Made by a program: the position numbers and the translations under genes. 24,374 nucleotides of DNA, taken from contig NZ_JOIX01000103.1 in the NCBI RefSeq assembly GCF_000720175.1, positions 1 to 24,374 on the forward strand, read 5' to 3'. Under the pieces are notes generated by a model, which was not told where the DNA came from, searched no databases, and saw nothing but the letters and a program-made list of their open reading frames with translations. The stretch's first letter is position 1. Each line of letters starts with the position of its first letter. Positions 18,577 through 24,358 of the stretch are shown in pieces. Origin of the DNA: Streptomyces sp. NRRL S-337 (GTDB lineage Bacteria > Actinomycetota > Actinomycetes > Streptomycetales > Streptomycetaceae).

Positions 18577-19530
18577 CTACTTGATCTCCGGCGGGCTGAT
18601 CTGCGACGTCTTGATCGCCGAGGGCCCGGTGCCCCACTTCTTCAGGATCCGCTCGTAGGTGCCGTCCTCCTTCAGATGGTTGACCGCGGCCCGGAAGGCG
18701 GGCGCCAGCGGGGTGCCCTTCTTGAACGCGAAGCCGACGTCGAGCCGTTTGAACTCGTTGAGGAACCGCAGGCCGGGCTGTTGTTCGACGGCGTACCGCA
18801 GCCCGTTGATGGTGCTCATCACCACGTCGCTGCGGCCCTGCTGGAGGGAGATCCACAGCGCGCCCTGCTCGGCGAAGGTCTTGACGTCGTACGGCTTCCT
18901 GCCGGCTTCCGGGCACAGGTGCCGGTTCTGCTCCAGCGTCGCCTCGAAGGTGGTGCCCGCGCCGGTGGCGACGGTCAGTCCGCACAGCTGCTTCAGCGAG
19001 GTGACCTTCTTCAGCGGGCTGTCCTGGCGGGCCGCGAAGCCCTGGCCGTCGTTGACGTACGTGACGAAGTCGAGGGTCCTGCGGCGCTCGTCGGTGACGC
19101 CGAAATTGCCGGTCCCCACGTCGTACTTGCCGCTGTCGAGGGCCGGCAGGATCGCCTCGAAGCTCGCCACCTCGCGGTGGATGCGCAGTCCGAGGGCCTT
19201 GCCGACCGCGTCCGCGAAGTCGATGTCCTGGCCGGCCAGGGTCGTGCCGTCGGGCAGATAGGTGGCGCCGGGCGGGGTGCCGACGGCGGCGGCGAGCGCG
19301 AGGGTGCCGCGCTTGCGGACCTCGGCGGGCAGCAGTTCCGCCGCGGCCGGGTCCTTGGTGACGCCGGAGACCACGTCGGTGGTGGGGATCTTGGCGTGCG
19401 CGGCGGCCGGCCCGGTGGCGCCGGCGGAGTCCGACGGGTCGCCCGAGCCGCAGGCGGTGAGCGCCAGGACCGCGGTGGACAGCAGGGCCGTGGCGCGCAG
19501 TGCGGTGGTGCGGGGCGTGGTGGGGGTCAT
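18577..19530 (-). CDS. Amino-acid-type ABC transporter substrate-binding lipoprotein
   Basis: This 317-residue lipoprotein belongs to the SBP_bac_3 family (polar amino acids and opines). The signal sequence ends in the lipobox LTAC with C27 as the lipidated residue. The mature protein has the two-lobe pattern: RGTLALAAAVGTPPGATYLPDG, GQDIDFADAVGKALGLRIHREV, FEAILPALDSGKYDVGTGNFGVTDERRRTLDF, and a C-terminal helix IKTSQISPPEIK. Two mature Cys probably form a disulfide. It is the third gene of a leftward operon, its ATG overlapping the GNAT stop. Together with the divergent permease (21630) it should form one importer. The ligand is not identifiable from sequence. Confidence 0.9.
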   Translation of the reverse strand: MTPTTPRTTALRATALLSTAVLALTACGSGDPSDSAGATGPAAAHAKIPTTDVVSGVTKDPAAAELLPAEVRKRGTLALAAAVGTPPGATYLPDGTTLAGQDIDFADAVGKALGLRIHREVASFEAILPALDSGKYDVGTGNFGVTDERRRTLDFVTYVNDGQGFAARQDSPLKKVTSLKQLCGLTVATGAGTTFEATLEQNRHLCPEAGRKPYDVKTFAEQGALWISLQQGRSDVVMSTINGLRYAVEQQPGLRFLNEFKRLDVGFAFKKGTPLAPAFRAAVNHLKEDGTYERILKKWGTGPSAIKTSQISPPEIK

Positions 19531-20033
19531 GGGCGCGGGGTCTCCAGGTGCTTCTCGAACGGCAGCGGGCCGATCGACTCCGGGTCGGCGGACAGGTCGA
19601 ACAGCGGCCGGTAGCCCGCGGCGAGGTAGAGGCCCTTGGCCTCGGGCTGGCGCGGGCCGGTGGTCAGGTGGATGCGGGTGTAGCCGCGGGCCGCGGCGTG
19701 CTGCTCCAGGGCCGCGAGGACCTGGCGGCCCAGTCCGCGCCGGCGGTGCGCGGAGTGCGTCCAGATCCTCTTGAGTTCGGCGGTCCGGGCATCGAGGCGG
19801 CGGTACGCGCCGCCGGCCACCGGCTCGCCGTCCGCAAGCAGCAGCAGGAAGGCGCCGCCGGGCGGGGCGAACTCCTCCGCCGGGTACTCCAGGCCGAGGT
19901 CGACCGGCTTGTGGTAGCGCGTGCGGTATTCGTGGGTCAGCTCGTCCAGCAGCGGGCGGGCGAGGGGATCGGTGACGGTGGTGTGCCGCACCGTCAGGTG
20001 ACGGCCCTTCAGGGGACCGGGTGTGGTGGTCAT
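19527..20033 (-). CDS. GNAT-family N-acetyltransferase
   Basis: This 168-residue enzyme has the GNAT acetyl-CoA-binding motif R97-R-R-G100-L-G102 preceded by LKRIWTHSAHR and followed by the helix VLAALEQHAAARGYTRI. A C-terminal strand (GLYLAAGYRPL) completes the fold. It probably acetylates a small amine rather than a ribosomal protein, judging from its neighbours. It lies between the monooxygenase and binding-protein genes with 4-nt ATGA overlaps on both sides, so all three are made together. In Bacillus sulfur-salvage operons (yxe, ytm) a GNAT enzyme N-acetylates the S-substituted cysteine before oxidation, which is the suggested role here by analogy. Confidence 0.85.
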   Translation of the reverse strand: MTTTPGPLKGRHLTVRHTTVTDPLARPLLDELTHEYRTRYHKPVDLGLEYPAEEFAPPGGAFLLLLADGEPVAGGAYRRLDARTAELKRIWTHSAHRRRGLGRQVLAALEQHAAARGYTRIHLTTGPRQPEAKGLYLAAGYRPLFDLSADPESIGPLPFEKHLETPRP

Positions 20034-21118
20034 CGGGCCGCCTCCGCGGCCGGCTCCGTTGCCCCGGCGGGTGCGGGCGAGGGCCAGGGCAGTGGGTCGG
20101 GCAGCTCGTGGCGCAGCGGGGGCAGTACCTCGGCGGCGGCCAGCCGCAGCACCTCGGCCTTGCGGGCGAACGGCAGCCCGGCGCTGTCCACGGAGAAGAA
20201 CTGCAGCGCATGGCCGTAGGCGAGGCGCTGCGACAGGATCTTGTCGACGATCCGCGCGGGCGAACCGACCAGCGCGGGACCGTGGTCGGCGGCCTCGTCC
20301 AGGGTGCGGAACGGGGTGTTGTTGCCCGGCACGTCGCGCGCGGCGACCGCCGTCTCGTAGTACGGCGCGAACTCCCGGCGGGCGGTGCGGTCGTCGGCCG
20401 CCGCGTAGAGGGTGCCGCCCGAGCCGACCAGCGCGGCAGCCGGATCGTGCCCGTGGTCCGCCCAGCGGGCCCGGTAGTGGTCGATCAGCTTGGCGTAATC
20501 GGCCACCGGCTGGATGACGTTGGCCGCGAGGACCGGATCGCCCCAGAGTGCCGCCAGCTCCACCGAACGCTCGCTGGTGGCGCTGCCGTGCCAGATGGTG
20601 GGCGGCCGCCGGAACGGGCGGGGCAGCACCGTGGCGTCCTTCAGCGGCGGCCGGAACCGGCCCGACCAGGTGACGTGCTCCTCGCTCCACAGCCGGCGCA
20701 GCAGTGCGTGGTTCTCCTCCAGCAGTGCGTACTGGTCGTCCGGATCGCGGTGGAAGAGGCGCCAGGGCTCGGGCGCGTTGCCCTTGCCGATGGTCAGCTC
20801 CAGCCGGCCGCCGGAGAGCTGGTCGACGGTTGCGTAGTCCTCCGCGACCCGTACCGGATCGAGGGTGGACAGCACGGTGACGGTGGTGAACAGCCGGATC
20901 CGGTGGGTCCGGGCGGCGATCGCGCCCAGCACCGCGGGCGGCGAGCTGGACAGGAACGGCGCACCGTGCCGCTCCCCGACACCGAAGGCGTCGAACCCCA
21001 ACTCCTCGGCAAGTACCGCGAGTTCGACGACCTCGCGGAGCCGGTCGTGGGGAGACAGGAGGCGCCCGGACAGCGCGTCCGGGACGTTGTCGATCAAAGT
21101 CATGACGCCGAAGCGCAT
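20030..21118 (-). CDS. LLM-class flavin-dependent monooxygenase
   Basis: This 362-residue protein is a luciferase-like (bacterial LLM) flavoprotein, a TIM-barrel enzyme that usually uses reduced FMN and oxygen. The N-terminal FGVMTLIDNVPD, FDAFGVGERHG, IRLFTTVTVLSTLDPVRVAEDYATVDQLSGGR and IWHGSATSERSVELAALWGDPVL blocks follow the family order. It lacks its own flavin reductase gene nearby. The ATG at 21118 has GAAGGG 6 nt upstream. It is the first gene of the leftward operon and lies behind a cysteine-ending leader peptide. By analogy with YxeK it may cleave a C-S bond in an N-acetylated cysteine derivative. Confidence 0.88.
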   Translation of the reverse strand: MRFGVMTLIDNVPDALSGRLLSPHDRLREVVELAVLAEELGFDAFGVGERHGAPFLSSSPPAVLGAIAARTHRIRLFTTVTVLSTLDPVRVAEDYATVDQLSGGRLELTIGKGNAPEPWRLFHRDPDDQYALLEENHALLRRLWSEEHVTWSGRFRPPLKDATVLPRPFRRPPTIWHGSATSERSVELAALWGDPVLAANVIQPVADYAKLIDHYRARWADHGHDPAAALVGSGGTLYAAADDRTARREFAPYYETAVAARDVPGNNTPFRTLDEAADHGPALVGSPARIVDKILSQRLAYGHALQFFSVDSAGLPFARKAEVLRLAAAEVLPPLRHELPDPLPWPSPAPAGATEPAAEAAR

Positions 21119-21363
21119 ACCGCGCCCTTCTGCGAGCGGGACGGAGGGAGGAGGAAGGAAGCACGAAAGGACGAAAGGACGAAAGGAAGGAGGAAAGGAA
21201 GAAGGGCCCCCTGGGGGGAGGGAGGCGTGACGAAGAGGGTGGAGCGAGGGGAGGGGTCGCCGAAGAAGCGGCGTGGCGTGTGAAGGCGCGCGGCGGAAGG
21301 ACGAGAAGAACCGCGGAAGGGGCCCGGCCTTATCGGCGACGGGCCGCAGGGCAGGGGGTCAGC
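21119..21363. other. Leader region between leader peptide and monooxygenase gene
   Basis: This 245-nt region lies between the leader-peptide stop and the LLM gene, so it would be transcribed as 5' UTR. It contains a purine-rich + strand tract, so the transcript itself would be pyrimidine-rich. I could not identify a clean terminator/antiterminator pair by eye. Confidence 0.5.
21163..21186. repeat. Three tandem copies of ACGAAAGG in a purine tract
   Basis: ACGAAAGG occurs three times in tandem (21163-21170, 21171-21178, 21179-21186), inside a nearly all-purine + strand stretch at about 21141-21209. It sits in the 5' UTR region of the leftward operon. Confidence 0.75.
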
Positions 21364-21435
21364 TCAACAGGACGACGACCACACACGACCGAAGTCGATG
21401 TGGTCGCGGGTGACCAGTCGCTGCCATGCGTACAT
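21364..21435 (-). CDS. Putative cysteine-responsive leader peptide
   Basis: This 23-codon ORF (minus strand) contains the core RLVTRDHIDFGRVWSSSC and stops directly after the Cys codon TGT. The pattern L-V-x-R-x-H-I/V-D-x-x-R-V-x-S...C matches the short leader peptides I recall upstream of actinobacterial sulfur-metabolism genes, where ribosome stalling at Cys codons controls the downstream operon. The ATG at 21435 was chosen because a -10-like hexamer ends 7 nt upstream; an ATG at 21456 would make 30 residues. It is followed by the LLM-GNAT-binding-protein operon 245 nt downstream. The match is to a pattern from memory and needs database confirmation. Confidence 0.65.
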   Translation of the reverse strand: MYAWQRLVTRDHIDFGRVWSSSC

Positions 21436-21442
21436 GCCAACA

Positions 21443-21471
21443 AGTGGAACAGGCATCCGTTTCGACGTCAA
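21443..21471 (-). promoter_or_regulatory. Candidate leaderless promoter of leader peptide
   Basis: On the minus strand TTGACG (21466-21471) and TCCACT (21443-21448) are 17 bp apart, and the second hexamer ends 7 nt before the ATG at 21435. The -35 is near consensus and the -10 is weak. The layout fits the leaderless leader peptides described in mycobacteria. Confidence 0.45.
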
Positions 21472-21507
21472 CCACGACGTGATCCATCGCTCACAGTGCG
21501 GACAGCC

Positions 21508-21538
21508 TTGACAACCCGGCGTGTTGACCCCATAGCCT
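21508..21538 (+). promoter_or_regulatory. Candidate promoter of the permease operon
   Basis: A perfect TTGACA (21508-21513) is followed by CATAGCCT; TAGCCT (21533-21538) lies 19 bp away and CATAGC 17 bp away. Transcription would start near 21545, leaving about 85 nt of leader before the permease ATG at 21630. This promoter faces away from the leader-peptide promoter, with about 36 bp between the two -35 elements. Confidence 0.55.
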
Positions 21539-21629
21539 CAAGGGCCGGTCGTGCTGAGGGGCGCGGCCCGCTCGTTCGTGTGAAGGCGCCGGAGCCCGTG
21601 CTCGCTCTCGGCATCCACGGAGCCTTCGC

Positions 21630-22529
21630 ATGCCCTTGGTCGACCCCGTTTCCGACACCCTCGACGCCCCGGCGGCACCCGCCGCGGTGCCCCCCGACAC
21701 CCCCGGCAACCCCGGCTCCCCGGACCCCGCCGCGCTCCGCATCGTGCCGCACCGGCGCACCGGCCGGCGGGCCGCGGCCGCCGTCGTCCTCGTCCTGCTG
21801 GCGCTGGCCCTCGTCTCCGTCGTCCGCAACGACGCCTTCCAATGGGACGTGGTCGCCGACTACTTCCTGACCACCGCCGTCCTGCGCGGCCTGGGGCTGA
21901 CGCTCTGGCTGACCGTGGCCGTCATGGTGCTCGGCTTCGCGCTGGGCACCGTGCTCGCGGCCATGCGGCTGTCGGACAACCCCGTGCTGCGCGGCGTGAG
22001 TTGGGGCTACGTCTGGCTCTTCCGGTCCATGCCGATCCTGGTGCAGCTGCTGTTCTGGTTCAACATCGGGGCGCTCTACCCGACGATCCTCGGCGTGCGG
22101 ACCGTCAACCTGCTCGACCCGGTCGGCGTCGCGGTCATCGGGCTGACCCTGCACGAGGCCGCCTACGCCGCCGAAGTGGTCCGCGGCGGCATCCTGTCGG
22201 TCGACAAGGGGCAGCTGGAGGCCGCCCAGTCGCTGGGGCTGGGCGCCTGGCGGCGGCTGCGCCGGATCGTGCTGCCGCAGGCCATGCGGGCGATCGTGCC
22301 ACCGGCCGGCAACATGCTGATCGGCACCCTCAAGGGCACCTCCATCGTCAGCGTCATCGCCGTCCAGGACCTGCTCTACTCCGTGCAGCTGGTTTACCAC
22401 CGCACCTATCAGGTCATCCCGCTGCTGCTGGTCGCCACCCTCTGGTACGTCATGGTCACCTCCGTGCTCAGCGCCGGGCAGTTCTTCGTCGAGCGGCACT
22501 ACGCCCGCGGTACGGCCGGTGCGCGGTGA
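21630..22529 (+). CDS. Polar amino acid ABC transporter permease
   Basis: This 299-residue inner-membrane subunit belongs to the HisM/GlnP-type family. After a Pro/Ala-rich 45-residue N-terminus it has five to six helices. The EAA loop, contacting the ATPase, is EAAQSLGLGAWRRLRRIVLPQ (E197-A-A), and the SMPILVQLLFW and PPAGNMLIGTLKGTSI blocks are typical. The ATG at 21630 has CGGAG upstream. It overlaps the next gene by 4 nt (GTGA). No ATP-binding subunit lies in the window, so it must be encoded elsewhere. It is paired by location with the divergent binding lipoprotein. Confidence 0.93.
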   Translation: MPLVDPVSDTLDAPAAPAAVPPDTPGNPGSPDPAALRIVPHRRTGRRAAAAVVLVLLALALVSVVRNDAFQWDVVADYFLTTAVLRGLGLTLWLTVAVMVLGFALGTVLAAMRLSDNPVLRGVSWGYVWLFRSMPILVQLLFWFNIGALYPTILGVRTVNLLDPVGVAVIGLTLHEAAYAAEVVRGGILSVDKGQLEAAQSLGLGAWRRLRRIVLPQAMRAIVPPAGNMLIGTLKGTSIVSVIAVQDLLYSVQLVYHRTYQVIPLLLVATLWYVMVTSVLSAGQFFVERHYARGTAGAR

Positions 22530-24358
22530 AGGCCTCGCTCGTCATCGTCGGGGCCGGCCCGCGCGGAACCGGCGTCCTGGAGCGGCTGGCCGCCAACCTC
22601 CCCGCGCTGTACGGCGACCGGCCCCTGGACATCCACCTCGTCGATCCGCACCCGCCCGGCGGCGGCCGCATCTGGCGCCACGACCAGTCCCCGCTGCTGT
22701 GGATGAACTCCATGGCCGAGGACGTCACGATGTTCACCGACGAGACGGTGGAACAGGCCGGCCCGGTGCGGCCGGGCCCCACGCTCGCCGAGTGGGCCGG
22801 GGCCGACGGGCAGGCGTTCCTCAGCCGGCAGCAACAGGGCGCGTATCTGCGCTGGGTGTACGAACGGTCGGTGGCCGCGCTGCCGCCCGCCGTCACCGTC
22901 CACGAGCATCGGGGTACCGCGGTACGGGTCTCCGGCTCGCGCGACGGCCGGCAGCAGGTGTGGCTGGCCGGCCGCCCGGCCCCGCTCCTGGCCGACCTCG
23001 TCGTCCTCACCCTCGGTCACCTCGACGCCGAACTGCCGCCGGAGCAGGCGAAGTTGGCGAAATTCGCGGTCCGGCACGGGCTGACGTACCTGCCGCCCGC
23101 CTTCACCGCCGACAGCGATCTCGGCGCCCTCCGGCCCGGTGAACCGGTGCTGGTGCGCGGTTTCGGGCTGGCCTTCATCGACCTGATGGTGCTGCTGACC
23201 GAGGGCCGCGGCGGCACGTACACCACCGGCCCGGACGGGCGGCTGACCTACCGGCCCTCGGGCCGCGAGCCCGTCCTGCACGTCGGTTCGCGGCGCGGCG
23301 TCCCGTACCACTCCAAGATCGGCTACCCGCCGAGCGGTGAACGGCCGCCGCTGCCCCGGTTCTTCGGGCCCGCCCAGGTGGACGAACTCCTCGCCCGGCC
23401 CGGCGGGATCAGTTTCCGGCGCGACGTCTGGCCGCTGATCGACAAGGAGCTGGGCTTCGCCCACTACCACCGGCTGTTCACCGCGCACGCCGACCGCACC
23501 CGGATGGCCTGGCCCGACTTCGAGGAGAAATACGCCGCCGCCGACCCGGGCAGCGCCGCCCTCCAGGCCCTGGTCGGCGCGGCCGTCCCGGACCCCGCCG
23601 ACCGGCTGGACCTGGCGGCGCTGGACCATCCGCTGGCCGGCCTGCGCCACCCCGACGCCGAGGCGCTGCAGGAGGGGCTGCGCGGCTACATCGAGGCCGA
23701 CCTCGCCCGCCGCCACGACCCCGCGCACAGCCCCGACCTCGCGGTCTTCCTCGCGCTGCTGTCGGTCTACGGCCAGCTGGTCCGGCTCGGCGACCGCGGC
23801 CCCTGGTGGCACGGCTTCTTCAGCTACCTCGCCTCCGGCCCGCCGGGACCGCGGCTGCGCCAGCTGCTCGCGCTCTCCCGGGCCGGTGTGGTGCGCTTCC
23901 TCGGCGCGGACACCACCGTCACCGCCGACCCGCGGCGCGGGCTGTTCCGCGCCGAAAGCCCCAGCGTGCCGGGGGAGTCGGTGACGGCCCGGGCGCTGGT
24001 CGAGGCCCGGCTGCCGGAACCGACCGTGGCGCACACCCGCGACGTCCTGCTCCGCTCCCTGTACGCCGAGGGCGCGGCCGCGACCCCGGCCGGGCTGCTG
24101 GCGGTCGACCCCGCCGACGGCCGGATCCTGGACCGGGCCGGTCTCCCGCACCCGCGCCGCTTCGCCCTCGGCCCGCACACCGACGCCCGGGCCGGCGGCG
24201 CGTTCTCCCGTCCCGGTACCAACGCCCCCGCCTTCCGGCAGAACGACGCCACCGCGCGGGCGCTGCTCACCTTCCTCCGCGACCGGGCCGCCCGGCCCGG
24301 ATCTGCCGGGGTGAGGCGGCGACCGGGGAGCCGTCGTGCCAGGCGAGGTCGGCGGTGA
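22526..24358 (+). CDS. Large FAD/NAD(P)-binding protein (NAD_binding_9-like)
   Basis: This 610-residue flavoprotein begins with the Rossmann loop VIVGAGPRGTG (residues 6-16) and continues HLVDPHPPGGGRIWR and LLWMNSMAEDVTMFTDETV, the signature of the FAD/NAD(P)-binding family known as NAD_binding_9. Family members are mostly uncharacterised and resemble N-hydroxylating or Baeyer-Villiger flavoproteins. The middle has GEPVLVRGFGLAFIDLMVLL. The family-like region ends near FRQNDATARALLTFL. The last 25 or so residues are Arg-rich and look like readthrough into the next gene. The GTG at 22526 overlaps the permease stop, so it belongs to the transport operon and may act on the imported compound. 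Confidence 0.82.
   Translation: MKASLVIVGAGPRGTGVLERLAANLPALYGDRPLDIHLVDPHPPGGGRIWRHDQSPLLWMNSMAEDVTMFTDETVEQAGPVRPGPTLAEWAGADGQAFLSRQQQGAYLRWVYERSVAALPPAVTVHEHRGTAVRVSGSRDGRQQVWLAGRPAPLLADLVVLTLGHLDAELPPEQAKLAKFAVRHGLTYLPPAFTADSDLGALRPGEPVLVRGFGLAFIDLMVLLTEGRGGTYTTGPDGRLTYRPSGREPVLHVGSRRGVPYHSKIGYPPSGERPPLPRFFGPAQVDELLARPGGISFRRDVWPLIDKELGFAHYHRLFTAHADRTRMAWPDFEEKYAAADPGSAALQALVGAAVPDPADRLDLAALDHPLAGLRHPDAEALQEGLRGYIEADLARRHDPAHSPDLAVFLALLSVYGQLVRLGDRGPWWHGFFSYLASGPPGPRLRQLLALSRAGVVRFLGADTTVTADPRRGLFRAESPSVPGESVTARALVEARLPEPTVAHTRDVLLRSLYAEGAAATPAGLLAVDPADGRILDRAGLPHPRRFALGPHTDARAGGAFSRPGTNAPAFRQNDATARALLTFLRDRAARPGSAGVRRRPGSRRARRGRR

Follow-up and report, generated by a model that had tools for sequence, protein, structure and literature searches.

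A conserved cysteine-terminated leader ORF before a probable sulfur-scavenging operon in Streptomyces, a candidate for cysteine-responsive attenuation

The window, the 24,374-nucleotide stretch analysed here, is one entire contig of the Streptomyces sp. NRRL S-337 genome, which comprises 9.06 Mb in 227 contigs. A short ORF on its minus strand stands before three genes of the same strand, and two genes run in the opposite direction on the other side. The features of the locus are as follows.

18577 to 19530, minus strand: ABC substrate-binding protein (SBP), family 3 (NCBIfam, below the cut-off)
19527 to 20033, minus strand: GNAT acetyltransferase of 168 amino acids (Pfam, PF00583)
20030 to 21118, minus strand: LLM flavin monooxygenase (PF00296; best NCBIfam match TIGR04036, below the cut-off)
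21119 to 21363, minus strand: C-rich, G-poor spacer of 245 nt (C 0.49, G 0.20), a candidate Rho loading region
21125 to 21131, minus strand: AGAAGGG, Shine-Dalgarno sequence of the monooxygenase gene (from the sequence and the orthologues)
21364 to 21435, minus strand: leader ORF of 23 codons, MYAWQRLVTRDHIDFGRVWSSSC and stop (from its translation, its conservation and a match to NF042936 below the cut-off)
21443 to 21471, minus strand: predicted promoter, TTGACG (21466-21471), 17 nt, TCCACT (21443-21448) (from the sequence and the spacing in relatives)
21630 to 22529, plus strand: divergent ABC permease (best NCBIfam match a cystine permease model, below the cut-off)
22526 to 24358, plus strand: FAD/NAD(P)-binding protein (PF13454)

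The initial annotation had described a monooxygenase-acetyltransferase-transport operon downstream of the ORF, and an LLM monooxygenase, a GNAT acetyltransferase and an amino-acid-type SBP were found there. A SepF gene lies next beyond the SBP gene on the same strand. All NCBIfam matches other than that to the general permease model TIGR01726 fell below their cut-offs, so the gene names are given by resemblance. Lys/Arg/Orn and cystine types were among the best NCBIfam matches of the SBP, below the cut-off. The closest solved structures by sequence were LLM monooxygenases for the LLM protein and amino-acid binding proteins for the SBP, and such sequence neighbours leave the substrate unfixed. 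Judged from its gene make-up, the operon is probably a sulfur-scavenging one. The scm, ytn and yha clusters of Bacillus subtilis are partly similar, with an acetyltransferase and a monooxygenase for S-modified cysteines, but they hold a deacetylase gene, whereas none was recognised in the window operon (PMC12757645). The excerpted text of that paper does not mention a leader peptide for these clusters.

The coordinates and the peptide given in the initial annotation, a 23-codon ORF with its stop right after a Cys, were exact. The UGA stop directly follows Cys23, which is the only Cys codon of the ORF; the run of several Cys codons seen in the functional class is absent. The promoter-like elements described before it, a -10-like hexamer with TTGACG at 17 bp that ends 7 nt upstream of the ATG (21435), could likewise be read in the sequence, and TCCACT is a weak -10. 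We collected 38 leaders, with 32 distinct leader DNAs, by a DNA pattern that fixed residues 6-19. In 37 of these, TTGAC started 35-36 nt 5' of the ATG; in the 38th it also stood at 36 and was masked in the tally by a second copy. In the tally of the -10 element, the hexamer of most group iii leaders was recorded one base off (CTCAAT for TCAATT), as read by eye. The constant spacing between TTGAC and ATG places the predicted transcription start at or adjoining the leader ATG, and from this promoter geometry the mRNA is predicted to be leaderless.

Conservation was first considered in loci retrieved by their LLM protein, without use of the leader. All seven close orthologous loci (L034-L040), whose LLM proteins are 83-93% identical to that of the window, carried the leader in frame. 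Among the named loci listed, Streptomyces nigrescens and S. endophytica were nearest by the downstream gene (93% identical). Loss of the ORF from orthologous loci, or equal rates of synonymous and non-synonymous change, had been named in advance as findings against the proposal. The ORF was kept, and it showed purifying selection: across the window and the seven orthologues, codons 6-23 had a pN of 0.006 and a pS of 0.121 (pN/pS 0.05), while the ratio in codons 2-5 was 0.95. Synonymous changes exceeded non-synonymous ones in the frame of the leader ORF only, and the two other frames lacked this pattern. Among 322 windows of 18 codons in the LLM gene, none had a pN as low as the leader core. 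The pS of the LLM codons was 0.21-0.30 versus 0.12 in the leader, a value as low being reached by 2.2% of the 322 windows, so the silent sites of the leader are constrained as well. Judged by this substitution pattern, the ORF is a genuine conserved leader peptide, presumably translated.

The upstream regions of LLM relatives had been proposed for comparison, and the expectation held for the close relatives but not for the distant ones. When up to 600 nt 5' of each of 96 LLM relatives, the seven orthologues included, were searched with a looser motif, eight matched, namely the seven and L087, and the reversed-segment control gave none in 96. Thus, only one of the 89 more distant relatives had such an ORF within this distance. 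Some of the remaining loci had a leader-like ORF in another place, as in L041 and L042, where it stood behind the LLM gene, and one further leader, outside the 96, was seen before an LLM relative (L192); these ORFs do not enter the tally. The leader accompanies the head of the sulfur operon and not the LLM gene as such. In the 38 pattern-collected leaders, the invariance of residues 6-19 follows from the collecting pattern, which did not bear on the silent sites, on Cys23 or on the seven named orthologues. Since the 38 leaders are related, their codon counts are not independent. In a set collected with a relaxed pattern, D11 was replaced by S or H, and F15 by L.

The initial annotation had pointed to a likeness to leader peptides of actinobacterial sulfur genes. 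This was borne out by NCBIfam NF042936 (leader_Ms4527A, Cys-rich leader peptide), which matched the window leader with an E-value of 1.4e-4. Residues 7-23 aligned to profile positions 3-19 of 21, including the terminal Cys. The score of 21.4 bits lay below the curated cut-off of 45, and NF042934 (cis_reg_atten, cut-off 27 bits) matched neither the window leader nor four of its subfamily relatives at E-values up to 10. The leader of the sulfite reductase gene in the same genome, in contrast, passed NF042934 (33 versus 27 bits). The window leader shares with NF042936 the motif over residues 7-23 with Cys at the end, but has its own core RLVTRDHIDFGRVW, a single Cys and an internal UUCG hairpin. 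Every one of 150 congeneric genomes had one to nine NF042936 matches at E <= 0.01; none of the 150 had a match above the cut-off, and none of 14 control genomes had a match at E <= 0.01. When the window peptide was the query, 261 of 392 congeneric genomes matched at E <= 0.001. By these profile comparisons, the window leader represents a known kind of leader in a variant not yet catalogued, below the cut-offs of the current curated models.

Rfam gave no match in the whole window at the gathering score or in 21090-21660 at an E-value of 10, and blastn of the upstream region against plasmids gave none. Among the matches listed by a literature search, no title or abstract opening described a Streptomyces cysteine leader, and the search found no paper naming Ms4527A. 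Table 4 of the S. lividans reannotation, in the excerpt of PMC8079986, contains eight leaders, none with the window motif; the metL leader contains three Cys.

Further members of the family occur in the same genome. A leader on contig C16, 89% identical over 19 residues, stands before a second monooxygenase, LLM2, which resembles alkanesulfonate and dimethylsulfone monooxygenases with scores below their cut-offs. The C22 leader matched the window peptide weakly (E 2.5) but had a better NF042936 score than the window leader and passed NF042934. It precedes a sulfite reductase gene, behind which lie frames with PAPS-reductase-domain and APS-kinase products, in line with the proposed link to sulfur genes. 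The C28 leader (NF042936 E 2.7e-5) has an internal Cys and precedes a gene for a GST-domain protein.

In other genomes, 30 NF042936 loci were considered. Three of them (L125, L143 and L144) had no leader under the search pattern used. The other 27 gave a downstream gene, picked by a codon-position heuristic, and 23 of the products were scanned after four near-duplicates were left out. They included seven sulfite/nitrite reductases (NIR_SIR), two sulfatases and one LLM protein, together with three 2OG-Fe(II) oxygenases, three ROK proteins, three GST-domain proteins and one protein with a response-regulator domain. The wider family is thus sulfur-rich yet not confined to sulfur genes. GST-domain proteins were seen behind wider-family leaders in L138, L140, L142, L226 and C28 of the same genome, and 2OG-Fe(II) oxygenases in L139, L141 and L145. 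These genes, whose part in sulfur metabolism is not obvious, are candidates for control by cysteine.

The gene behind the leader also varied among its closest relatives. For the 29 best leader matches (L146-L174), the next gene was LLM in three, GNAT-SBP in five, SBP in one, LLM2 in six, FAD in one and SepF in one; 12 had no co-directional relative of these genes behind the leader, one of these loci being incomplete. In five longer loci chosen for having the leader (L187 and L189-L192), it stood before LLM2 in all cases. Behind the LLM2 leader, L187 and L192 had GNAT, SBP and permease genes; L191 had GNAT, the permease and a distant SBP; L189 had SBP and permease relatives with no recognised GNAT; and L190 had the permease and a distant SBP. 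A further LLM relative was present in L189, L190 and L192, with its own leader in L192. L189 additionally held an ABC ATPase, a second SBP, an acyl-CoA-dehydrogenase-like gene and an Rrf2 regulator.

Selection on the leader was also seen where operon genes were lost. In the 12 loci of group ii, the leader had a pN of 0.008 and a pS of 0.154, and in an ungapped comparison its identity was 95%, that of the 60 nt past the stop being 51%. Genes were scored as lost in this group from tblastn searches with the proteins of the window and its relatives, which covered 1.5 kb or, for L184-L186, up to 8 kb; some lineages may have lost them recently. The persistence of the leader without operon genes could possibly reflect a function in trans, read-through in antisense or a recent date of the losses.

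A gene for a DUF5685 protein often lies convergent to the leader. The protein had 22-33 Cys and a poly-Cys tail in all 11 loci examined, and its gene ended 106-683 nt past an orphan leader in L149, L153, L159-L162, L164-L167 and L169. The leader was convergent in 20 of the 31 loci that had been selected by DUF5685 (L194-L224), with an SBP gene between the two in 12, a remnant in one and none in seven. These counts indicate that the SBP often remains after loss of the LLM and GNAT genes, and that the leader occurs even without the SBP. Antisense control of the Cys-rich DUF5685 gene is weakened as an explanation and is not the favoured one, because DUF5685 also adjoins the leader where it precedes the SBP gene (12 of 20). 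The adjacency looks like old synteny. Within this set, L197 had an additional leader with an extended frame, and in L217 the GNAT and SBP genes were present and the leader lay just beyond the stretch examined.

Three structures were considered in the leader RNA.

21377 to 21405, minus strand: hairpin A within the ORF, a 12-bp stem with a UUCG loop and one bulged base (from folding)
21350 to 21425, minus strand: P0, a possible long-range helix between codons 4-7 and a stretch at and just after the stop (from RNAalifold)
21321 to 21345, minus strand: hairpin B, a GC hairpin GGCCCG...CGGGCC, 18 nt past the leader stop (from comparison of 17 sequences)

Hairpin A consists of GACCACAUCGAC-UUCG-GUCGNGUGUGGUC. 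Its bulged base N falls on the free third position of the Arg17 codon, where all four letters occur. Gly16 was GGT in 37 of the 38 leaders versus 21 of 184 Gly codons in five window genes, and Cys23 was TGT in 38 of 38 versus 0 of 10. When the leader was resampled in its codons 5000 times, 0.7% of the versions reached the observed mean hairpin energy and 16% reached the weakest observed; by this measure, the choice of silent bases favours the hairpin. In 17 further leaders, most with RSH for RDH, the two outer pairs were mostly lost without compensation and ten were kept. In 27 wider-family leaders there was no hairpin excess, a median of 0.635 of the resamples being at least as stable. P0 contains 10 pairs in two helices, with 98.8% of cells paired in each over 17 sequences; the window itself lacks pair 18/74. 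The five outer pairs of hairpin B were present in 17 of 17 sequences, with a variable loop and no U-run. It is possibly a terminator or pause hairpin, and the window showed no terminator recognisable by a U-run. The 17 sequences showed no covariation for P0, A or B, which speaks neither way because the pairs hardly vary.

The spacer is C-rich and G-poor. Its best 78-nt stretch in the window (C 0.59, G 0.14) was matched by one of 832 control windows, taken from positions 1-21000 and thus mostly from coding DNA. Across 11 leader-LLM loci, two of which (L148 and L151) repeat L038 and L040, the spacer was 158-267 nt long with C 0.44-0.53 and G 0.19-0.29, and C minus G in the best 78 nt was 0.32-0.54, reached by at most 1.1% of the 832 control windows. 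Such a rut-like composition does not in itself demonstrate Rho action. The predicted exposure of the ribosome-binding site (RBS) in the window was 0.06 for a free leader and 0.05 for an occupied one, so masking of this site by the leader was unsupported by the modelling. Exposure was little changed in six of the seven orthologues and dropped from 0.43 to 0.17 in L039. This insensitivity in the window favours a transcriptional step. For the C16 copy, with an 80-nt spacer, the predicted exposure rose from 0.27 to 0.51 on occupancy; the same leader may therefore act through transcription here and through translation there.

Taken together, we consider cis-acting, cysteine-responsive attenuation of the operon for sulfur scavenging (LLM, GNAT and SBP) from a leaderless mRNA, probably through Rho, to be the best reading, with a probability of about two in three. 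The mRNA would begin at the ATG of the leader. With ample Cys-tRNA, the ribosome would pass Cys23 and depart at the UGA. The spacer and hairpin B would then be exposed to Rho or to pausing and termination, and transcription would end before the monooxygenase gene. In cysteine shortage, the ribosome would halt at the Cys23 codon and lie over the last part of the leader together with the conserved stretch that follows the stop. This would shield the RNA, and transcription would proceed into the operon. The scheme draws on the ORF itself, the selection on its peptide, the geometry of the promoter, the association with sulfur genes and the C-rich spacer; translation, the cysteine response and Rho are its inferred parts. 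The association with sulfur genes makes cysteine-responsive control by the leader likely, and Rho acting in the spacer would be the likeliest terminating step. Several points stand against this reading. A classical attenuator would be expected to have more than one Cys codon; a number of leaders of the wider family stand before genes without an evident sulfur role (ROK, GST-domain, 2OG-Fe(II) and response-regulator-domain proteins); some loci have no co-directional operon gene behind the leader; neither a U-run terminator nor an Rfam element was recognised; and the helices lack covariation. The initial interpretation as a whole is partly supported.

TnaC is a nascent peptide that arrests the ribosome in response to tryptophan, and the leader might likewise sense cysteine or a related thiol from the exit tunnel, with RLVTRDHIDFGRVWSSSC arresting the ribosome at or near the last Cys or the stop. 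We regard this as unlikely, but conservation of the whole peptide keeps it a candidate. The 17 residues before Cys are kept, although classical attenuators need their regulatory codons alone; the low pN of codons 6-23 (0.006) differs from the ratio near 1 in codons 2-5; the wider family writes a related motif with other codons; and the length, with the stop straight after the last conserved residue, resembles TnaC. However, hairpin A may account for part of the conservation, the terminal Cys equally fits simple tRNA starvation, and the group ii, group iii and C16 leaders extend two residues past the conserved Cys. In a rather improbable extension, the peptide itself would sense cysteine by arrest at the single Cys, and the leader RNA or peptide would also act in trans; the trans role was proposed because the leader is under selection where no co-directional operon gene remains. 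Translational attenuation, in which the leader RNA would hide the downstream RBS until a stalled ribosome releases it, fits the C16 leader, which pairs up to the RBS (z -2.37), where freeing of that site gives the rise in exposure described above. In the excerpt of PMC13236596, cysteine genes of M. smegmatis are likewise said to be regulated by translation attenuation. For the window operon we hold it to be doubtful, since the predicted exposure hardly moves in seven of eight sequences (the window and its orthologues) and drops in L039, and 158-267 nt separate the leader stop from the gene start. A conserved hairpin or DNA element with an incidental ORF would fit the hairpin energy beyond codon-resampled expectation and the low leader pS, but is very improbable, given the synonymous excess in the ORF frame only and the peptide motif without hairpin in the wider family.

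According to excerpts of PMC13236596 and PMC9031893, leader ORFs of M. smegmatis attenuate their genes in response to cysteine, as reported by Canestrari in 2020; this lends weight to such control in the window. The mycobacterial Cys-rich leaderless ORFs, as excerpted from Shell 2015 (PMC4633059), resemble the window in the leaderless start (predicted here), a Cys near the stop and sulfur genes downstream. They have clusters of Cys codons and are reported to act in translation, whereas the window leader has a single Cys and its gene lies 245 nt away. In the excerpt of Seliverstov 2005 (PMC1262725), the Cys leaders of Mycobacterium and P. acnes cys operons and of B. longum cbs have runs of Cys codons, unlike the window; PolyY motifs between leader and gene were proposed as Rho sites, and no conserved terminator hairpin was found. 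Rho was suggested there for the mycobacterial Cys leaders in a prediction called weak, and Streptomyces is absent from the cysteine cases of its section 6.

If cysteine-responsive attenuation is true, a leader overlooked by the curated models flags cysteine-controlled genes in Streptomyces, and S-modified cysteines or related organosulfur compounds would be suggested as substrates of generically named monooxygenase operons. With its hairpin, its one Cys and its persistence beyond the loss of the operon, the leader would offer a compact system for deciding whether such leaders sense tRNA charging or act as nascent peptides.

Several minor observations were made at this locus and in its relatives. 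The sequence GTGTGAAGGCG occurs on the plus strand at 21278-21288, between the leader and the LLM gene, and at 21578-21588 in the permease 5' region, and most close orthologues keep both copies. As a genome-wide operator it was rejected, with nine exact copies versus 17 for the backwards control pattern and thus no enrichment; the other seven genomic copies had no common context by eye. The permease 5' region (about 21530-21630, plus strand), with GTGCTGAGGGGCGCGGCC...GTGTGAAGGCG...CCACGGAGCC, is strongly conserved in orthologues and has no Rfam match; it is possibly an RNA element or operator. A record titled Vibrio cholerae 35D (L045) holds an LLM relative with 54% identity, and is probably a mislabelled or contaminated contig. 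A leader relative with 65% identity (L225) lies on a Streptomyces clavuligerus plasmid (NZ_CP027859.1, about position 968965).
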